Part shown: positions 15,122 through 35,320 of the stretch, in pieces
Layout of the letters: every line of letters begins with the position of its first letter
Position numbering within the stretch: position 1 is the stretch's first letter
NCBI GenBank assembly: GCA_016209735.1
Contig: JACQVN010000033.1
Span: 1 to 36,775, forward strand
DNA: 36,775 bases
Source: Candidatus Methylomirabilota bacterium
Lineage (GTDB): Bacteria > Methylomirabilota > Methylomirabilia > Methylomirabilales > 2-02-FULL-66-22
Direction: 5' to 3'
Notes under the pieces: model-generated
Databases searched by the model: none
What the model saw: the letters and a program-made list of their open reading frames with translations, nothing else
Told to the model about the DNA's origin: nothing
Translations under genes and position numbers: made by a program

Positions 15122-16474
15122 ATGGGCCGTCTGTTCGGAACGGATGGGGTCCGGGGGGTGGCCAACCAGGAGCCGATGACCCCCGAGACGGTGGTCAGAC
15201 TCGGGCGAGCGCTGGCCTACCTGGTCCGCACCCCCGGCGAGCGGCGCAGCATCCTCATCGGCAAGGATACCCGCATCACGGGGTACATGCTGGAGACGGC
15301 GCTGACGGCGGGGATCACCTCCATGGGAGTGGATGTCCTCCTGGCCGGCCCCCTGCCCACGCCGGGGATCGCCTTCCTCACCCGGAGCCTGCGGGCGGAT
15401 GCGGGCGTGGTGATCTCCGCCTCGCACAATCCCTCCGAGGACAACGGCATCAAGTTCTTCTCCGGCGCCGGCCTCAAGCTGCCGGATTCCAGCGAGGCGC
15501 AGATCGAGGAGATGCTCTACTCCGGGGCTATCGACCAGGTGCGTCCGGGGGCGAACGAGATCGGCAAGGCGTTTCGCGTCGAGGGGGCGACCGGCCGCTA
15601 CGTGGAGTTCGTGAAGGCCTCCTTTCCGCGCGGCCTCGGCCTGCGCGGCCTGAAGGTGGTGGTGGACTGCGCCCACGGCGCCACGTACAAGGTGAGCCCG
15701 GTGGTGCTGCGCGAGCTGGGAGCCGATGTCCTGGCCATGAACGTGGCCCCCGACGGCCTCAACATCAACGACGGCTGCGGCTCGCTCCACCCCGAGGAGT
15801 TGCAGCGGACGGTGGTGGCCGAGGGGGCGCATGTCGGCTTCGCGCACGACGGGGACGGCGATCGCGTGATTTTCGTGGACGAACAGGGCGCGCTGGTGGA
15901 CGGGGACCAGGTCCTGTGCATGTGCGCCGCCGACATGCAGGGAAGCGGCCGGCTGGCCCGAAGCACAGTGGTGGCCACGGTCATGAGCAATATCGGCTTG
16001 GAGCAGGCGCTCAAGGAGCGCGGCATCGCCCTCGTCCGCACGCCGGTGGGGGATCGCTACGTTCTGGAGGCGATGCTCGCGGGAGGCTTCACGCTGGGCG
16101 GCGAGCAGTCCGGGCACATCATTTTCTCCGAGCACAATTCCACGGGCGACGGGGCGGTCACCGCCCTGCAGGTTCTGGCGGTCATGCAGCGCTCCCGCCG
16201 GCGACTCTCGGAGCTGGCGGCGGGCATGCGCCGCTACCCCCAGGTCCTGCAGAACGTGCGGGTGCAACGCCGGGAGGAGCTTCAGGGCCTGCCCGCGGTG
16301 CAGGAGGCGATTCGCGCGGTCGAGGCGCGCCTGGCGGGCACGGGGCGGGTGCTGGTCCGCTTCTCCGGGACAGAGCCGCTCGTGCGGGTCATGCTGGAGG
16401 GCCCCGACGAGGGCACGATCCGGGCCGGGGCGGCACAGATCGCGGATGCGGTCCGGGCCAGCCTGGCGGAATGA
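15122..16474 (+). CDS. glmM: Phosphoglucosamine mutase
   Basis: A 450-residue enzyme that converts glucosamine-6-phosphate to glucosamine-1-phosphate for peptidoglycan and lipopolysaccharide precursors. The phosphoserine loop ISASHNP (98-104) has the active Ser at 101. The metal loop DGDGDR is at 242-247, the sugar loop GEQSGH at 326-331 and the phosphate loop RFSGTEP at 412-418. The N-terminus FGTDGVRG is typical. ATG 15122 follows GGGGAG. The stop codon TGA (16472-16474) is also the first part of a 7-bp repeat array that fills the gap to the next gene. Confidence 0.97.
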   Translation: MGRLFGTDGVRGVANQEPMTPETVVRLGRALAYLVRTPGERRSILIGKDTRITGYMLETALTAGITSMGVDVLLAGPLPTPGIAFLTRSLRADAGVVISASHNPSEDNGIKFFSGAGLKLPDSSEAQIEEMLYSGAIDQVRPGANEIGKAFRVEGATGRYVEFVKASFPRGLGLRGLKVVVDCAHGATYKVSPVVLRELGADVLAMNVAPDGLNINDGCGSLHPEELQRTVVAEGAHVGFAHDGDGDRVIFVDEQGALVDGDQVLCMCAADMQGSGRLARSTVVATVMSNIGLEQALKERGIALVRTPVGDRYVLEAMLAGGFTLGGEQSGHIIFSEHNSTGDGAVTALQVLAVMQRSRRRLSELAAGMRRYPQVLQNVRVQRREELQGLPAVQEAIRAVEARLAGTGRVLVRFSGTEPLVRVMLEGPDEGTIRAGAAQIADAVRASLAE

Positions 16475-16548
16475 ACGTTGAACGTTTAACGTTGAACGTG
16501 CAAACCCCCGAACGCTCGAACGTTCGAACCCCCGAAGTCTCGAACCGC
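16472..16548. repeat. Heptad (ACGTTGA) plus octad (CGAACNNT) tandem array
   Basis: From the glmM stop codon TGA, units ACGTTGA, ACGTTTA, ACGTTGA and ACGTGCA follow at exact 7-bp spacing (16475-16502). Five units starting CGAA follow at exact 8-bp spacing: CGAACGCT, CGAACGTT, CGAACCCC, CGAAGTCT, CGAACCGC (16509-16548). The array fills almost the whole gap up to the Shine-Dalgarno of the PdxJ-like gene. Confidence 0.85.
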
Positions 16549-16560
16549 CGGGAGGCACAC

Positions 16561-17289
16561 ATGCCGCGGCTCTTTACAGAGTTGGACCATCTGGGCCTCC
16601 TGCGTCAGGCGGGAGGCGGGCGAGATCCCGACCCTGCCCATGTCGCCATCCTGGCGGAGCTGGCCGGCGCGGGGGGGATCAGCGTGCCCTGCACCCGCGG
16701 CGGCTCCGGCGTGCAGGAGCGGGACCTCCGCGTCATGCGGGAAGTCGTCCACACCGTCTTCGCCCTCTGCATTCCCCCCCAGGACGACCTGGTCAAGCTG
16801 GCCCTGACCCTGCGTCCGGATCTGGTGACCCTCATCCCCGAGCCGCGGGAGCCCTATGAGCCCGAGCGCGGCCTGGACATAGAGGATCGCCGATCCGAGC
16901 TGGCGGGCTGCATCGACGCCCTGAAGGGGGGGAAGATCCCGGTGGTCCTGCTGGTGGATCCCTCGCCGCTGCAGATCAAGGCGGCGCAGCGTACGGGCGC
17001 CGGGGGCGTCCGGCTGCACACCGGCCGCTTCTGCTGGGCGGCGGACCAGGGGGCGCGGGCCGCGGAGTACGAGGCGCTGCTGAACGCCGCCAAGGTCGCC
17101 CTGCGCCTGGGGCTCCCCGTGCACGCGGGCGGCGGGATCGGCTACCAGACCGTCGGCGCCATCGCCCAGATTCCGGAGATCGATACCGTCGTCGTGGGAC
17201 ATAGCTTCTTGGCTCGCGCCATGCTCGTGGGGGTCGCAGAAGCGGTGGGCGAGCTCCTGCGATTGATGCGGGAAGGGGCGGCCCGATGA
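16561..17289 (+). CDS. PdxJ-like protein lacking PNP synthase catalytic residues
   Basis: A 242-residue TIM barrel that aligns end to end with pyridoxine 5'-phosphate synthase PdxJ. Conserved parts are LDHLGLLRQAGGGRDPDP, the PDLVTLIPE strand, HTG and a phosphate-site GH (213-214). The catalytic positions of the E. coli enzyme are changed: His45 is Pro43, Glu72 is Cys70, Glu153 is Arg151, His193 is Gly191, and Asn of the NIDH motif is Glu7. The frame is intact, with GGGAGG upstream, and overlaps acpS by 4 bp (ATGA), as pdxJ does in relatives. I infer a folded protein without normal PdxJ activity, or one with a new activity on a related phosphorylated substrate. Confidence 0.85.
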   Translation: MPRLFTELDHLGLLRQAGGGRDPDPAHVAILAELAGAGGISVPCTRGGSGVQERDLRVMREVVHTVFALCIPPQDDLVKLALTLRPDLVTLIPEPREPYEPERGLDIEDRRSELAGCIDALKGGKIPVVLLVDPSPLQIKAAQRTGAGGVRLHTGRFCWAADQGARAAEYEALLNAAKVALRLGLPVHAGGGIGYQTVGAIAQIPEIDTVVVGHSFLARAMLVGVAEAVGELLRLMREGAAR

Positions 17290-19285: not shown

Positions 19286-19319
19286 TTGACAGTGCTGTGG
19301 TTCGAGGTGCGGACGTGAA

Positions 19320-19424
19320 ACGTTGAACGCTGAACGTTATACGTTAAACGTCATCCAGGTACCGTCGTACTGCCGTACCGCCGCACAGCCGTACGGTATT
19401 TGTACTCCCGAACCCTCGAACCTG
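19320..19424. repeat. Heptad (ACGTTGA) plus octad (TACTGCCG, CGAACCCT) array
   Basis: Five units at exact 7-bp spacing (ACGTTGA, ACGCTGA, ACGTTAT, ACGTTAA, ACGTCAT; 19320-19354) are followed by five at exact 8-bp spacing (TACCGTCG, TACTGCCG, TACCGCCG, CACAGCCG, TACGGTAT; 19360-19399). CGAACCCT and CGAACCTG follow (19409-19424). The array fills the nnr-tsaE gap and leaves tsaE with a poor Shine-Dalgarno. Confidence 0.85.
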
Positions 19425-20920: not shown

Positions 20921-20943
20921 GCAAAGGCAGTTCGCGGGTACGG

Positions 20944-20975
20944 GAGTTCGAAGGTTCGAGGGTTCAGAGGCTCGA
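20944..20975. repeat. Octad array (AGGTTCGA family)
   Basis: Four units at exact 8-bp spacing: GAGTTCGA, AGGTTCGA, GGGTTCAG, AGGCTCGA. This is the reverse-complement orientation of the CGAACCCT family found at 16509 and 19409. It starts 24 bp after the kinase-BON stop codon. Confidence 0.75.
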
Positions 20976-22429: not shown

Positions 22430-23656
22430 ATGAAGACGCCGCGGGCGATCCTGCTCTTCCTGCTGGGCATCAATCTGCTGAACTACATCGACCGGCAGGT
22501 CATCTTCGCCGTCTTCCCGCCCATCAAGGCGGAGTTTTCCCTGTCGGACATCCGGCTGGGTCTATTGGCCTCGGCCTTCATGTGGGTCTATCTCAGCACC
22601 GCCCCGATCTTTGGACTCCTGGCGGATCGCTGGTCGCGGCCCCGGCTCATGGCGGTCGGGGTGGCCCTCTGGAGCCTCGCCACCGCGCTCTCGGGGGTCG
22701 TCCGGGGCTATTCCGGGCTGCTTTTCGCCCGCGCCGTGGTGGGTGTGGGGGAGGCGAGCTACGGGTCGGTGGCGCCGGCCCTGCTGAGCGATGCCTTTCC
22801 GCCGGCCAGGCGCGGCTTCGCGCTGGCCATGTTTTCGATGGCCATTCCGGTGGGGAGCGCCCTGGGGTATCTCCTGGGCGGTCTCCTGGAGGGGGCCTTC
22901 GGCTGGCGGACCGCCTTCTTCCTGGTGGGAGTCCCCGGCCTCCTCCTGGCCTCGTGGCTGGGGCGAATGCCGGATCTGCCCCGCGGGGGGATTGATGCCG
23001 CCGCTGCCTCCGGAAGAGACGCACGCCCCCCCCGGGTCGGCGACTATTTCCGCCTCCTCAGGACGCCCAGCTTTCTCCTCAACTGTCTGGCCATGACCGC
23101 CATGACCTTTGCCGTAGGGGGGCTGGCCGCCTGGGTGCCGACCTACCTCACCCGGGTTCGCGGCATGGCCCTGGATCAGGCCAATCTGCTCTTCGGGCTC
23201 CTCACGCTGGTCAGCGGGGTCGGCGGGACGGTCCTCGGAGGCTGGATGGGGGATCGGCTGCTCCCCCGGCTGCCGACCGCCTATTTCCTCGTGTCCGGCA
23301 TCGGCCTCCTCTTCAGCGTCCCTGCCGCCGCGGCGGTGATTCTCCTGCCGGATCTTCGGTGGGTCCTCTTCGCGATCTTTGTGGCCGAGTTCTGCATCTT
23401 CTTGAACACCGGCCCGCTCAACGCCATCATCGCCAACGTGAGCCGCCCGGAGGTCCGCTCCGGCGCCTACGCCGCCAACATCTTCGTCATCCACGCCCTG
23501 GGCGATGCCATCTCGCCCGCCATCATCGGCGCCGTCTCGGATCGGGCGGGACTGGCGACGGCGTTCTGGATCGCGCCCGGCGCGCTGGGATTGGCGGCCG
23601 CCTTCTGCCTCTGGGGGATGTGGCACCTCACGCGGGACGCCGCGGCGGCACAGTGA
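22430..23656 (+). CDS. Spinster-like MFS transporter
   Basis: A 408-residue, 12-helix MFS protein related to spinster-type (Spns) and other anion or lipid exporters. The first helix carries INLLNYIDRQVIFAVFPPIKAEF, the signature start of that group. The A-motif loop GLLADRWSRPRLM lies between helices 2 and 3, and RAVVGVGEASYGSVAPALL is helix 4. ATG 22430 is preceded by GGGGGG and a hairpin. A second MFS gene of a different family lies directly upstream. The substrate is unknown. The stop codon is the first repeat element of an ACGTTGA array. Confidence 0.85.
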   Translation: MKTPRAILLFLLGINLLNYIDRQVIFAVFPPIKAEFSLSDIRLGLLASAFMWVYLSTAPIFGLLADRWSRPRLMAVGVALWSLATALSGVVRGYSGLLFARAVVGVGEASYGSVAPALLSDAFPPARRGFALAMFSMAIPVGSALGYLLGGLLEGAFGWRTAFFLVGVPGLLLASWLGRMPDLPRGGIDAAAASGRDARPPRVGDYFRLLRTPSFLLNCLAMTAMTFAVGGLAAWVPTYLTRVRGMALDQANLLFGLLTLVSGVGGTVLGGWMGDRLLPRLPTAYFLVSGIGLLFSVPAAAAVILLPDLRWVLFAIFVAEFCIFLNTGPLNAIIANVSRPEVRSGAYAANIFVIHALGDAISPAIIGAVSDRAGLATAFWIAPGALGLAAAFCLWGMWHLTRDAAAAQ

Positions 23657-23720
23657 ACGTTGAACGTTGAACGTTAAACGTGGAACGTTGCCCCCGTACT
23701 GCCGTACCGCCGTACTGCCG
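23654..23720. repeat. Heptad (ACGTTGA) plus octad (TACTGCCG) array
   Basis: The transporter stop codon TGA is followed by ACGTTGA, ACGTTGA, ACGTTAA, ACGTGGA, ACGTTGC at exact 7-bp spacing (23657-23691). TACTGCCG, TACCGCCG, TACTGCCG follow at exact 8-bp spacing (23697-23720). TGA recurs at 23654, 23661 and 23668, giving stops in all three frames. The array separates two convergent genes. Confidence 0.88.
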
Positions 23721-23732
23721 TGCCGATTCTTC

Positions 23733-26472: not shown

Positions 26473-26658
26473 AAGCGCGGCAGTATTTTTTTGCACGGCG
26501 TCGACCAGTCCCATCAGGTGAACGCGCCATGCGGGGTTTGACACTCGAGATTCAGGTCTCCTGCGGTCGCACGTAAGCATCGGGGTCACCTCGTTTCGGG
26601 GTTGGTCATTGTCTACTCCCGATCAATCCCATAGGGGTTCCCCGAAGCCTTTCAGGTT

Positions 26659-26687
26659 TGGTTTTTGCGCGCCCAGCGCAAAAACCA
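26659..26687. repeat. Dispersed palindrome, copy 2, at the ribosome-binding site
   Basis: TGGTTTTTGCGC and GCGCAAAAACCA form a perfect 12-bp stem with a 5-nt loop. The 3' arm ends on the first base of the AGGAGGGAG Shine-Dalgarno of the next gene (26687-26695), so the folded form could limit ribosome access. It is related to copy 1 at 22284-22312. Confidence 0.8.
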
Positions 26688-26700
26688 GGAGGGAGACTCA

Positions 26701-30153: not shown

Positions 30154-31251
<1,098 letters not shown>

Positions 31252-31417: not shown

Positions 31418-31474
31418 GGGAAATCTCACAGCACCGGAGGAAGGGTGGTGCTCCCGGTTCGAGGTGCGGGGATC

Positions 31475-31732
31475 AGGGACCAGGGACCAGGGACCAGGGG
31501 TCGAGGGTTTAGGAGCACGAGTACAGCACGGCTGTACGGCGGCACGGCGGTTCGCCAGTTCGGCGGTGCAGGAACGGGTTCGGGAGTTCGAAGGTTCGGC
31601 GGTACGGCAGTACGATGGCACGACCGTATCTGGGTGACGTTGAACGTTTAACGTTTCACGTTCGCCGCCCCCGGCCCCTGCCCCCTGATCCCTGACCCCT
31701 GCCGCCCCCATTCCGCAATCCGCATTTCGCAA
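31475..31732. repeat. Large composite field of 7- and 8-bp tandem repeats, five families
   Basis: In order: AGGGACC x3 plus AGGGGTC (7 bp; 31475-31502); GGCTGTAC, GGCGGCAC, GGCGGTTC, GCCAGTTC, GGCGGTGC (8 bp; 31530-31569); GGTTCGGG, AGTTCGAA, GGTTCGGC, GGTACGGC, AGTACGAT, GGCACGAC (8 bp; 31577-31624); ACGTTGA, ACGTTTA, ACGTTTC, ACGTTCG (7 bp; 31637-31664); CCCTGCC, CCCTGAT, CCCTGAC, CCCTGCC (7 bp; 31676-31703); CATTCCGC, AATCCGCA, TTTCGCAA (8 bp; 31709-31732). Within each block the spacing is exact. Confidence 0.88.
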
Positions 31733-31761
31733 TCGGCCGCACCGCGTGCGACCGAAATCCC

Positions 31762-31868: not shown

Positions 31869-33323
31869 ATGCATGCGCCGCTTCCCGGCAGCGTCCGGGT
31901 TCGTTTTGCTCCGAGCCCGACCGGCTACCTCCATGTGGGCGGGGTTCGGACCGCCCTCTACAACTGGCTGTACGCCCGCGCGCAAGGCGGGGTCTTCATC
32001 CTGCGGATCGAGGACACGGATGTGGAGCGCTCCACGGCGGCGGCCGTGCGGGCGATCCTGGACGGCCTGCGGTGGCTGGACCTGGGCTGGGACGAGGGGC
32101 CGGAGGCCGGGGGCCCCGCCGGGCCATACCGGCAGCTCGAGCGCGAGGCCCACTATCGCGAGCACACGGCGCGGCTGGTGCGGGACGGGAAAGCCTACCC
32201 CTGCACCTGCACGGCTGAGGAGCTGGCGGCCCGCCGGGAGGCCGCCCGGGCGGCCAAGCGGTCCGTCCGCCATCTCTGCCCTTGCCGCGAGACGGGACCT
32301 GTGGCCGGCCGGCGGGCGGCCATCCGCTTCCAGGTCTCGGACGCGGGGGCGGTGGCCTGGGACGACCTGATCCAGGGCCGCATCGAGGTGGTCCGGGCGG
32401 AGATCGACGACTTCATCATCGTCCGCTCCGACGAACGCGAGACGCCGGTTTACAACTTCGCGGCGGTCGTGGACGACGCCATGATGGGGATCACCCACGT
32501 GATCCGCGGGGCGGACCATATCCCCAACACCCCGCGCCAGATCCTCTTGTACGAGGCCCTGGGCTATCGGCTTCCGGCCTTCGGTCACATTCCGCTGGTC
32601 CTGGGGACGGATCGGGAGAAGCTCAGCAAGCGCCACGGGGATGTGGCGCTGCATGAGTACCAGGCCAAGGGGTATCTGCCCGAGGCCTTGGTGAACTACC
32701 TGGTCCGCCTGGGCTGGGCGCACGGGGATCAGGAGCTGTTCAGCCGCGAGGAGCTGGTGCGGGTATTCCGCCTGGAGAAGGTCGGCGCCGCCCCCGGGGT
32801 GTTCGACCACGCGAAACTGGATTGGCTGAACGGCGTCTACATCCGGCAGGCGCCCCCGGGGCGGCTGGCCGAGCTCCTGACGCCCTTCTGGGAGCCGGCG
32901 GGGATCGGCCGTGAGCTGGTCGAACGGCGGGGCCAGGCCTGGCTGCTCCAGGCCATCCCTCTGTTCGTGGAGCGGAGCAAGACGCTCCGCGAGATGGCCG
33001 GCGCCATGCGCTTCCTCTTCCAGGCGCCGGCGGCGTGGGAGCCGAAGGCGGCGGCCAAGTACCTCACGCCGGCCCACCGGGGGCACCTGCGGGCCGCCCG
33101 CCAGGCGCTGGCCGGCGCGGTCGAGTTCTCGGCGGAGGCGCTGGAGGCGCTGGTGCGGGCCCTGGTGGAGGGGCGGGGCCACAAGCTGGTGGAGTATGCC
33201 CAGCCGATCCGGGTGGCCATGACGGGCAGCGCGGCGAGCCCGCCGCTCTTCCCGATCCTGAGCCTGCTGGGCCGGGACGAGGTGCTGCGACGGATCGATC
33301 GCCTGCTGGAGGAGGGGAATTAG
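31869..33323 (+). CDS. gltX: Glutamyl-tRNA synthetase
   Basis: A 484-residue class I aminoacyl-tRNA synthetase that charges tRNA-Glu, and tRNA-Gln too if the cell uses the GatCAB route. The HIGH-type motif PSPTGYLHVG is at 15-24 and the KMSKS-type KLSKR at 251-255. Cysteines 112, 114, 137 and 139 form a CxC-x22-CxC zinc site typical of many bacterial GluRS. The C-terminal anticodon-binding helical domain is complete. ATG 31869 has AGGAG 8 bp upstream. tRNA-Gln and tRNA-Glu genes lie 1.8 kb downstream on the same strand. Sequence alone does not show whether it is discriminating. Confidence 0.97.
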   Translation: MHAPLPGSVRVRFAPSPTGYLHVGGVRTALYNWLYARAQGGVFILRIEDTDVERSTAAAVRAILDGLRWLDLGWDEGPEAGGPAGPYRQLEREAHYREHTARLVRDGKAYPCTCTAEELAARREAARAAKRSVRHLCPCRETGPVAGRRAAIRFQVSDAGAVAWDDLIQGRIEVVRAEIDDFIIVRSDERETPVYNFAAVVDDAMMGITHVIRGADHIPNTPRQILLYEALGYRLPAFGHIPLVLGTDREKLSKRHGDVALHEYQAKGYLPEALVNYLVRLGWAHGDQELFSREELVRVFRLEKVGAAPGVFDHAKLDWLNGVYIRQAPPGRLAELLTPFWEPAGIGRELVERRGQAWLLQAIPLFVERSKTLREMAGAMRFLFQAPAAWEPKAAAKYLTPAHRGHLRAARQALAGAVEFSAEALEALVRALVEGRGHKLVEYAQPIRVAMTGSAASPPLFPILSLLGRDEVLRRIDRLLEEGN

Positions 33324-33463: not shown

Positions 33464-33678
33464 CATCCGGCTGACGTGTCAAGTAAACAGCATTGGAATT
33501 AGCCCGGGCTTTTGACGATTTGCTCGTGAGCTGGCTGGGTTCGATCTTCGGCGTTTCGGGTCCCAGCAGAAGACTTCTGGCGCGCTTGGCGGTCTACGCG
33601 TTTCGGTGGCGTCTTGGCGGAGAAAACGAACTCCCCTGTGCCTTGTCGGTGAGTTCATTGCCGGGCTCGTGATCGCCA

Positions 33679-33706
33679 TGGTCCATCGTCCATGGTCCGT
33701 GGTCAG
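33679..33706. repeat. Heptad array (TGGTCCA family)
   Basis: TGGTCCA, TCGTCCA, TGGTCCG, TGGTCAG at exact 7-bp spacing. This is the reverse complement of the TGGACCA family at 34817-34851. Confidence 0.75.
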
Positions 33707-34798: not shown

Positions 34799-35016
34799 GG
34801 CGCAGAGCATAGACGATGGACCATGGACCCTGGACCCTGGACCATGGACTACCGACGCCTGCAGAGGAGCGAGGGAGCCGAGGAGCACAGGAGCAGAGGA
34901 GAGGGAGAGCCGGGGAGGAGGGGGGGGACAGGCCAGAGGGCACAGGGCACAGGGGGCAGGGGGCAGGGGCGCAGAGCATAGACGATGGACGTGGAACGTC
35001 GAACGTTAAACGTTCC
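34799..35016. repeat. Composite field of 7- and 8-bp tandem repeats before the tRNA genes
   Basis: TGGACCA, TGGACCC, TGGACCC, TGGACCA, TGGACTA (7 bp; 34817-34851); GAGGAGCG, AGGGAGCC, GAGGAGCA, CAGGAGCA, GAGGAGAG, GGAGAGCC (8 bp; 34864-34911); ACAGGCC, AGAGGGC, ACAGGGC, ACAGGGG, GCAGGGG, GCAGGGG (7 bp; 34928-34969); ACGTGGA, ACGTCGA, ACGTTAA, ACGTTCC (7 bp; 34989-35016). An exact 23-bp direct repeat (34799-34821 and 34968-34990) brackets most of the field. The gap 34789-35151 has no gene. Confidence 0.88.
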
Positions 35017-35151: not shown

Positions 35152-35225
35152 TGCGGGGTCGTCTAACGGTAGGACAGCAGACTCTGGATCTGCCTATTGG
35201 GGTTCGAATCCCTGCCCCGCAGCCA
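35152..35225 (+). tRNA. tRNA-Gln (anticodon CTG)
   Basis: A 74-nt cloverleaf with encoded CCA. The acceptor stem TGCGGGG pairs with CCCCGCA, and the discriminator is G. The anticodon stem GCAGA/TCTGC holds the loop CTCTGGA with CTG at 35184-35186, which reads CAG. The T-arm has GGTTCGAATCC. It shares promoter and terminator with the following tRNA-Glu. Confidence 0.95.
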
Positions 35226-35242
35226 ACAAGAGAATACGGCTT

Positions 35243-35320
35243 GGCCCTATCGTCTAGCCCGGCCTAGGACGCGGCCCTCTCAAGGCTGAAACCCGGGTTC
35301 GAATCCCGGTAGGGCCACCA
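35243..35320 (+). tRNA. tRNA-Glu (anticodon CTC)
   Basis: A 78-nt cloverleaf with encoded CCA. The acceptor stem GGCCCTA pairs with TAGGGCC, and the discriminator is A. The anticodon stem CGGCC/GGCTG holds the loop with CTC at 35279-35281, which reads GAG. It lies 17 bp after tRNA-Gln. Both tRNAs carry C34 and so read only G-ending codons. Confidence 0.95.

Follow-up and report, generated by a model that had tools for sequence, protein, structure and literature searches.

Tandem arrays of 7- and 8-base words between divergent ugpC-like and gltX genes, and in other intergenic gaps, of a Candidatus Methylomirabilota genome

The preference of bacterial intergenic repeats for a 7-base unit has so far been noted without a tested mechanism. 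Over-representation of heptamers, together with a proposal invoking polymerase contact, is reported in PMC4692102 and PMC4679880, a subset of repeat units of 6-9 bases is highly enriched in prokaryotic phyla (PMC12699852), and a Calothrix STRR is among the examples cited in PMC4692102. Genome-wide intergenic heptamer arrays have been described as GGGNATC in Xanthomonas and GGGGA(C/T)T in Nostoc and, like the arrays reported here, have a degenerate position, are scarcer between divergent genes and differ in length among relatives (Rehm et al., 2015, PMC4692102). TAACTGA repeats resemble those reported here in being intergenic heptamers, mixed in some genomes with other heptamers, with shorter repeat-free gaps in relatives and suspected horizontal spread (MacGregor, 2015, PMC4679880). 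REPINs, associated with RAYTs, share with the present elements a dispersed intergenic distribution, hairpins formed from inverted pairs and related transposases (Bertels and Rainey, 2011, PMC3116915).

Here, we describe a field of such arrays at 31469-31734 of a 36,775-nucleotide stretch (the window), which is contig C19 of a Methylomirabilota MAG (G000; 1.69 Mb, 62 contigs, 68.7% complete). Features of the window are collected in Table 1. The sequences nearest to its gltX come from two MAGs, at 79% (Candidatus Methylomirabilota, Lac Pavin) and 73%. A plasmid search with the field gave no match, and the known RNA families across the window are two tRNAs only, tRNA-Gln (ctg) and tRNA-Glu (ctc) at 35152-35320, which adjoin the second multi-family field.

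Table 1. Arrays and flanking genes in the window, with the basis of each assignment.
Feature	Position	Strand	Basis or remark
Flanking gene, UgpC-type ABC transporter ATPase	30154-31251	-	NF008653, 501.9 bits against a cut-off of 432
7-mer array GGGACCA, 4.4 copies	31469-31499	+	TRF; left arm of the outer inverted pair
Composite block, octamers to AACGTT	31524-31663	-	BLASTN of the gap; matches many other loci in the same genome
8-mer array, GTACGGCG/GTTCGGCG superfamily	31526-31570	+	Sequence and lag-8 coverage; TRF 31526-31550 (GCACGGCG, 8)
8-mer array GTTCGNNG passing into GTACGNNG, register unchanged	31578-31627	+	Sequence; TRF 31593-31614 (GGTACGGC, 8)
7-mer array AACGTTN, a palindromic hexamer plus one free base	31637-31662	.	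TRF (consensus ACGTTTA, 7)
7-mer array CCCTGAC	31667-31703	-	TRF (consensus GCCCCCT, 7); inverted partner of 31469-31499
7-mer array TCCGCAA (ATTCCGC/AATCCGC/ATTTCGC)	31712-31734	+	TRF
Flanking gene gltX, glutamate--tRNA ligase	31869-33323	+	TIGR00464, 494.7 bits against a cut-off of 289.95
AACGTTN and CGAACNNN arrays, starting at a stop codon	16472-16545	+	TRF
AACGTTN array, CATCCAG linker, GTACCGCC octamers	19313-19394	+	TRF
GTTCGAAG octamers	20936-20971	+	Ends read from the sequence
AACGTTN array, then CCGTACTG octamers	23654-23725	+	TRF
CCATGGT heptamers	33672-33704	+	TRF
Second multi-family field: CATGGAC (7), GCAGAGGA (8), GGGCACA (7), CAGGGGG (7)	34808-34974	+	TRF

An earlier note on this DNA had claimed six blocks of 7- or 8-bp period at 31475-31732, and TRF does resolve six arrays there. 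By lag analysis of 31460-31740, runs of period 7 cover 149 and runs of period 8 cover 86 of the 281 bases; shuffles average about 1 base, and none of 500 reaches either value. Lag 6 holds 20 bases over the same interval, and lags 4, 5 and 9-13 are empty. The six arrays do not represent six different words, as had been thought: AGGGACC and CCCTGAC belong to a single family and differ in orientation, the arms at 31466-31500 and 31668-31702 forming an inverted pair of 35 nt (80% complementary), the GTTCG and GTAC octamers, taken as separate words, are variants within one octamer superfamily, and the CATTCCGC block, listed with an 8-bp period, has a period of 7. The hairpin of the field itself is moderately unusual (DNA z -1.7, equalled by 6 of 100 shuffles; RNA z -1.9). 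Profile matches to both flanking genes agree with the claimed divergent gap, and the recurrence of the same words in at least six further gaps of the window is borne out near 16.5, 19.3, 20.9, 23.7, 33.7 and 34.8 kb.

That 7- and 8-base periods are a general feature of the genome, as the earlier note proposed, is supported across 352 kb of G000, where these periods stand clear of the others: TRF gives 72 rows of period 7, 34 of period 8 and 2 of periods 4-6 together (shuffles 0-2), and an independent lag detector gives 68 runs of period 7 and 23 of period 8 (shuffles 0.3 and 0). The heptamer arrays are dispersed over many loci; 53 of the 68 lag-7 runs are non-coding, as are 57 of the 72 period-7 TRF rows with a simple gene caller, so the claim that arrays lie always between genes holds for most and fails for the remainder. 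The pattern AACGTTBAACGTT occurs 30 times forward and 28 times in reverse in the genome (reversed control pattern, 0 and 1). Period-7 arrays per Mb number 205 in G000, 135 in G001 and 125 in G020, against 0 in G006 (51 kb sampled), 4 in a sample of more distant families (mainly f7) and 15 in other phyla (855 kb of loci), and loci of Acidobacteria and Chloroflexi also bear 7/8-base arrays; the density is thus lineage-specific and the kind of array wider. Runs of three AACGTT units were found in 9 of the 95 searched genomes of the phylum, all nine from one order. A scan of viral contigs for four AACGTT units returned 6 stretches. Two nine-base families, CACGAAGNN and CGCCAAGNN, were seen at L131:19096-19120 and L117:5486-5512, CACGAAGNN also as an inverted pair, and AGGGTTT/AGGGTAT heptamers, like plant telomere repeats, at L166:4692-4724 and L169:12803-12821 (family f6).

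The words are shared among loci to a degree that argues against growth of each array from a local random seed, as had been suggested. The 169 period-7 arrays fall into 38 word families (63.6 for random intergenic seeds) and the 80 period-8 arrays into 27 (59.5); the largest 7-mer family has 27 arrays (null mean 12.4, maximum 19) and the largest 8-mer family 18 (null 4.1, maximum 7). Judged from sequence comparison, the vocabulary is limited and reused across loci, not built afresh at each site. In BLASTN of the field gap, the composite at 31524-31663 aligns over 60-135 bases to other loci (L214, 75% over 135 bp; L215, 83% over 72; L216, 78% over 87; L217, 75% over 105; L118, 84% over 61; and others). 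Linkers of AACGTT-GTAC blocks are alike at several loci (CCAGGTACC / CTAGGTACC; also CATCCAGGTACC, CAGCTAGGTACC and CAGGCCAGGTACC); the linkers of the field, with arrays masked, gave no match elsewhere, being too short to match. G-quadruplex repeats, which call for at least three consecutive Gs in each unit of the main words, were considered and rejected, as the consensus of four of the commonest words (AACGTTN, GGACNAT, GTACCGCC and CGAACCNC) contains no such run.

Many arrays are arms of inverted pairs, a feature absent from the earlier note. The genomes sampled from the genus provide 212 pairs of neighbouring arrays; the members are inverted relatives in 72 of these pairs and direct relatives in another 37 (random partners, 9 and 11). 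Example hairpins, selected beforehand as inverted pairs, have z from -2.9 to -4.5 for octamers and from -1.3 to -4.0 for others. Arrays with no inverted partner also occur, and some arrays directly adjoin stop codons. A palindrome type, GGCACCCACGCCACGG...CCGTGGGTCCC, lies beside or inside octamer hairpins (L301:9966-10239, and a G003 gap in L323 matching L310:13837). Positions 26488-26695 of the window hold a piece of another dispersed intergenic element of about 200-250 bp, which ends ahead of a gene start and includes GGTTTTTGCGC...GCGCAAAAACC; its other copies are roughly 75-89% identical and lie in both orientations (e.g. L132, L133, L214, L229 and L230). Two genes, at L226:4554-5588 and L317:18560-19591, are of the REP-associated tyrosine transposase (Y1_Tnp) type, have a long C-terminal part and do not adjoin arrays.

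In relatives, the gap orthologous to that between the ugpC-like gene and gltX holds no array in G002, G003, G004 or G005 and one short CCCCTGA run only in G001, so the field was gained in G000 or lost in all five, and by this comparison a gain would be simpler. Changing words are seen at other orthologous gaps: the two genes that enclose AACGTTN plus CGAAC words at 16474-16561 of the window have between them GAGAGCY in G005, GAGAGCC in G001 and words of the ACAGGG and CGAAAT types in G003, and the G005 ortholog of the gap at 20936-20971 holds a GTCAGCG heptamer run instead of GTTCGAAG octamers. Across distant species a test for hot-spot gaps showed no association, the presence of arrays being uncorrelated (5 gaps with arrays in both, 15 and 10 in one only, 26 in neither; p = 1).

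About a dozen gaps were compared between the sisters G002 and G003, fragmented MAGs with flanks mostly 93-98% identical. One AACGTT array is unchanged and little or no change is seen elsewhere too, arrays differ in length by whole units (24 bases, 3x8; 98 bases, 14x7), an ACCAATG hairpin is nested within an octamer hairpin in one sister only, and in three gaps other sequence replaces the array; constancy between strains, raised in the earlier note, therefore holds for that AACGTT array and not for others. The clearest rewritten gap has GTTCGNNN octamers with CGAAC partners in G002 and TTCGNNN heptamers with CGAA partners in G003, that is, an octamer hairpin versus a heptamer hairpin at one site. 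Both G001 and G004 can be aligned with the G003 form through this gap, which suggests that the change happened in G002. Local hypermutation near arrays was rejected, as coding flanks in G002/G003 have diverged to a similar extent whether or not an array is present (with vs without: first 30 bases, 0.099 vs 0.075; next, 0.059 vs 0.066). A 51-base element in L327 (G003; query 1859-1909) recurs at dozens of loci across G001, G002 and G004, mostly at 84-93% identity.

Replication slippage alone, with each array grown from a local seed and the replicative polymerase slipping preferentially by 7-8 bases (a proposal of Mrazek et al., 2007, cited in PMC4692102 and PMC4679880), would fit the preference for periods 7 and 8, the over-representation of heptamers in many bacteria (PMC4692102, PMC4679880), the whole-unit changes in G002/G003 and the decay of unit similarity with distance in an array, mismatches between 7-mers rising from 2.32 for units at distance 2 to 3.38 for those at 8 (scored at unit distances of at least 2, adjacent units being left out because the detector selects for their likeness). 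We nevertheless consider it unlikely: it was already weakened by a vocabulary common to loci beyond the random-seed null, and composite blocks that recur at other loci, inverted pairing of neighbours and sisters that differ in word and period of both arms together also count against it. The slippage suggested in the earlier note thus accounts for the whole-unit changes and the decay, but not for shared words, composites or rewritten arms, and its other suggestion, templated copying, is unlikely for a reverse transcriptase, with no RVT_1 match in G000, G001 (array-rich), G003 or G004 (completeness 69% for G000, 93% for G001 and G003). Selection of a constant core for protein binding would match the conservation of 84-100% at the core positions of AACGTT units, whose seventh base is free (79 units, 21 arrays), the similar fixed and free positions of GGACNAT and the role proposed for TAACTGA by MacGregor (PMC4679880), but the contrast between core and free base is somewhat inflated because selection was scored with the free position omitted, which favours diversity there; since the words are unrelated and number in the dozens, and the sisters differ in their words at one gap, arrays as binding sites are very improbable.

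If the hairpins were terminator-like structures of 3' ends, folding would be maintained by selection and the words would be arbitrary, in line with the share of G000 gaps that carry arrays, which is 45% for convergent, 30% for tandem and 21% for divergent ones (a contrast based on 40 and 42 gaps, and weakened by these numbers), with the arrays that abut stop codons and with one gap that kept its hairpin though its word changed; the field itself, however, lies in a divergent gap and some arrays miss an inverted partner, so that this explanation appears distinctly unlikely. Quite improbable, too, is a REPIN-like mobile element whose movement depends on RAYTs (REP-associated tyrosine transposases), despite dispersed intergenic hairpins, an excess of inverted pairs (72/212 vs 9/212), between 3 and 13 Y1 transposase matches in each of the seven genomes and two Y1 genes of G000 that score 61.4 and 63.2 with the REP-associated transposase model, short of its cut-off of 80. 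A REP was present beside each RAYT examined (PMC3116915), whereas the stretches around two of the three Y1 genes of G000 hold no 7/8-mer array, and the arms here are tandem arrays of many words, not a single palindrome family.

The reading that we prefer, and to which we give about an even chance, is that the field consists of several dispersed intergenic elements stacked together, prone to form hairpins with 7/8-base arrays as arms and subject to unit slippage and overwriting. Blocks would spread among gaps by recombination or conversion between copies, or by small mobile-element activity; slipped-strand events would gain or lose whole units, perhaps since 7-8-base loops evade mismatch repair; arrays would survive outside genes, oftener at 3' ends, where hairpins may be tolerated or useful; and newer elements would overwrite older ones in place, whereby words would change. 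At 31469-31734, several such elements would have piled up between two divergent promoters. Dispersal, slippage and overwriting together would explain the shared words, composites, rewritten arms, whole-unit changes and similarity decay; as to movement of the elements, the analysis found neither a transposition intermediate nor target-site duplications nor defined ends. The modest fold of the field's own hairpin, its masked linkers that match nothing, the small number of gaps compared in two fragmented sister MAGs and the uncorrelated presence of arrays in distant species also weigh against this reading. A bolder possibility, which we hold to be rather doubtful, is an as yet undescribed process that rewrites intergenic hairpins as wholes, both arms acquiring another 7/8-base word at once and the gap retaining a hairpin, in which case a periodic hairpin, not a fixed sequence, would be what replicates. 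In closely related species pairs of the genus, arrays of corresponding gaps are variously unchanged, lengthened or rewritten, and slippage, recombination and mobility can thus be separated by comparison or long reads. Arrays also inflate gaps and can hide promoters and small elements from annotation.

Earlier papers already describe heptamer arrays, mixed arrays and empty sites, and the present arrays extend a known, unexplained repeat class, the heptamer SSR/STRR, with which they share an over-represented 7-base unit, mostly non-coding position, many loci and unit numbers that vary among relatives. The STRR of cyanobacteria, attributed to Mazel and colleagues (1990), reportedly comprise several tandem heptamer families per genome, as here; unlike here, we know of no octamers, composites or hairpin arms among them. 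The small dispersed repeats of Nostoc, attributed to Elhai and colleagues (2008), are said to be embedded in tandem heptamers, a likeness by description. The open-access literature yielded no description of both arms being rewritten with a change of period at one site. REPIN arms belong to a single conserved palindrome family that has copies next to its RAYT (PMC3116915), whereas the arms here are tandem arrays, with no RAYT neighbourhood found for two genes of G000. The heptamers of Xanthomonas and Nostoc are of one G-rich, G-quadruplex-capable word type per genome (PMC4692102), and those here comprise dozens of words, mostly not of the G-quadruplex type, with 8-mers in addition and many arrays as hairpin arms. 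TAACTGA is one word, with near-word arrays rare and positions mostly just upstream of start codons (PMC4679880), in contrast to the many words, and their rewriting at one site, described here.
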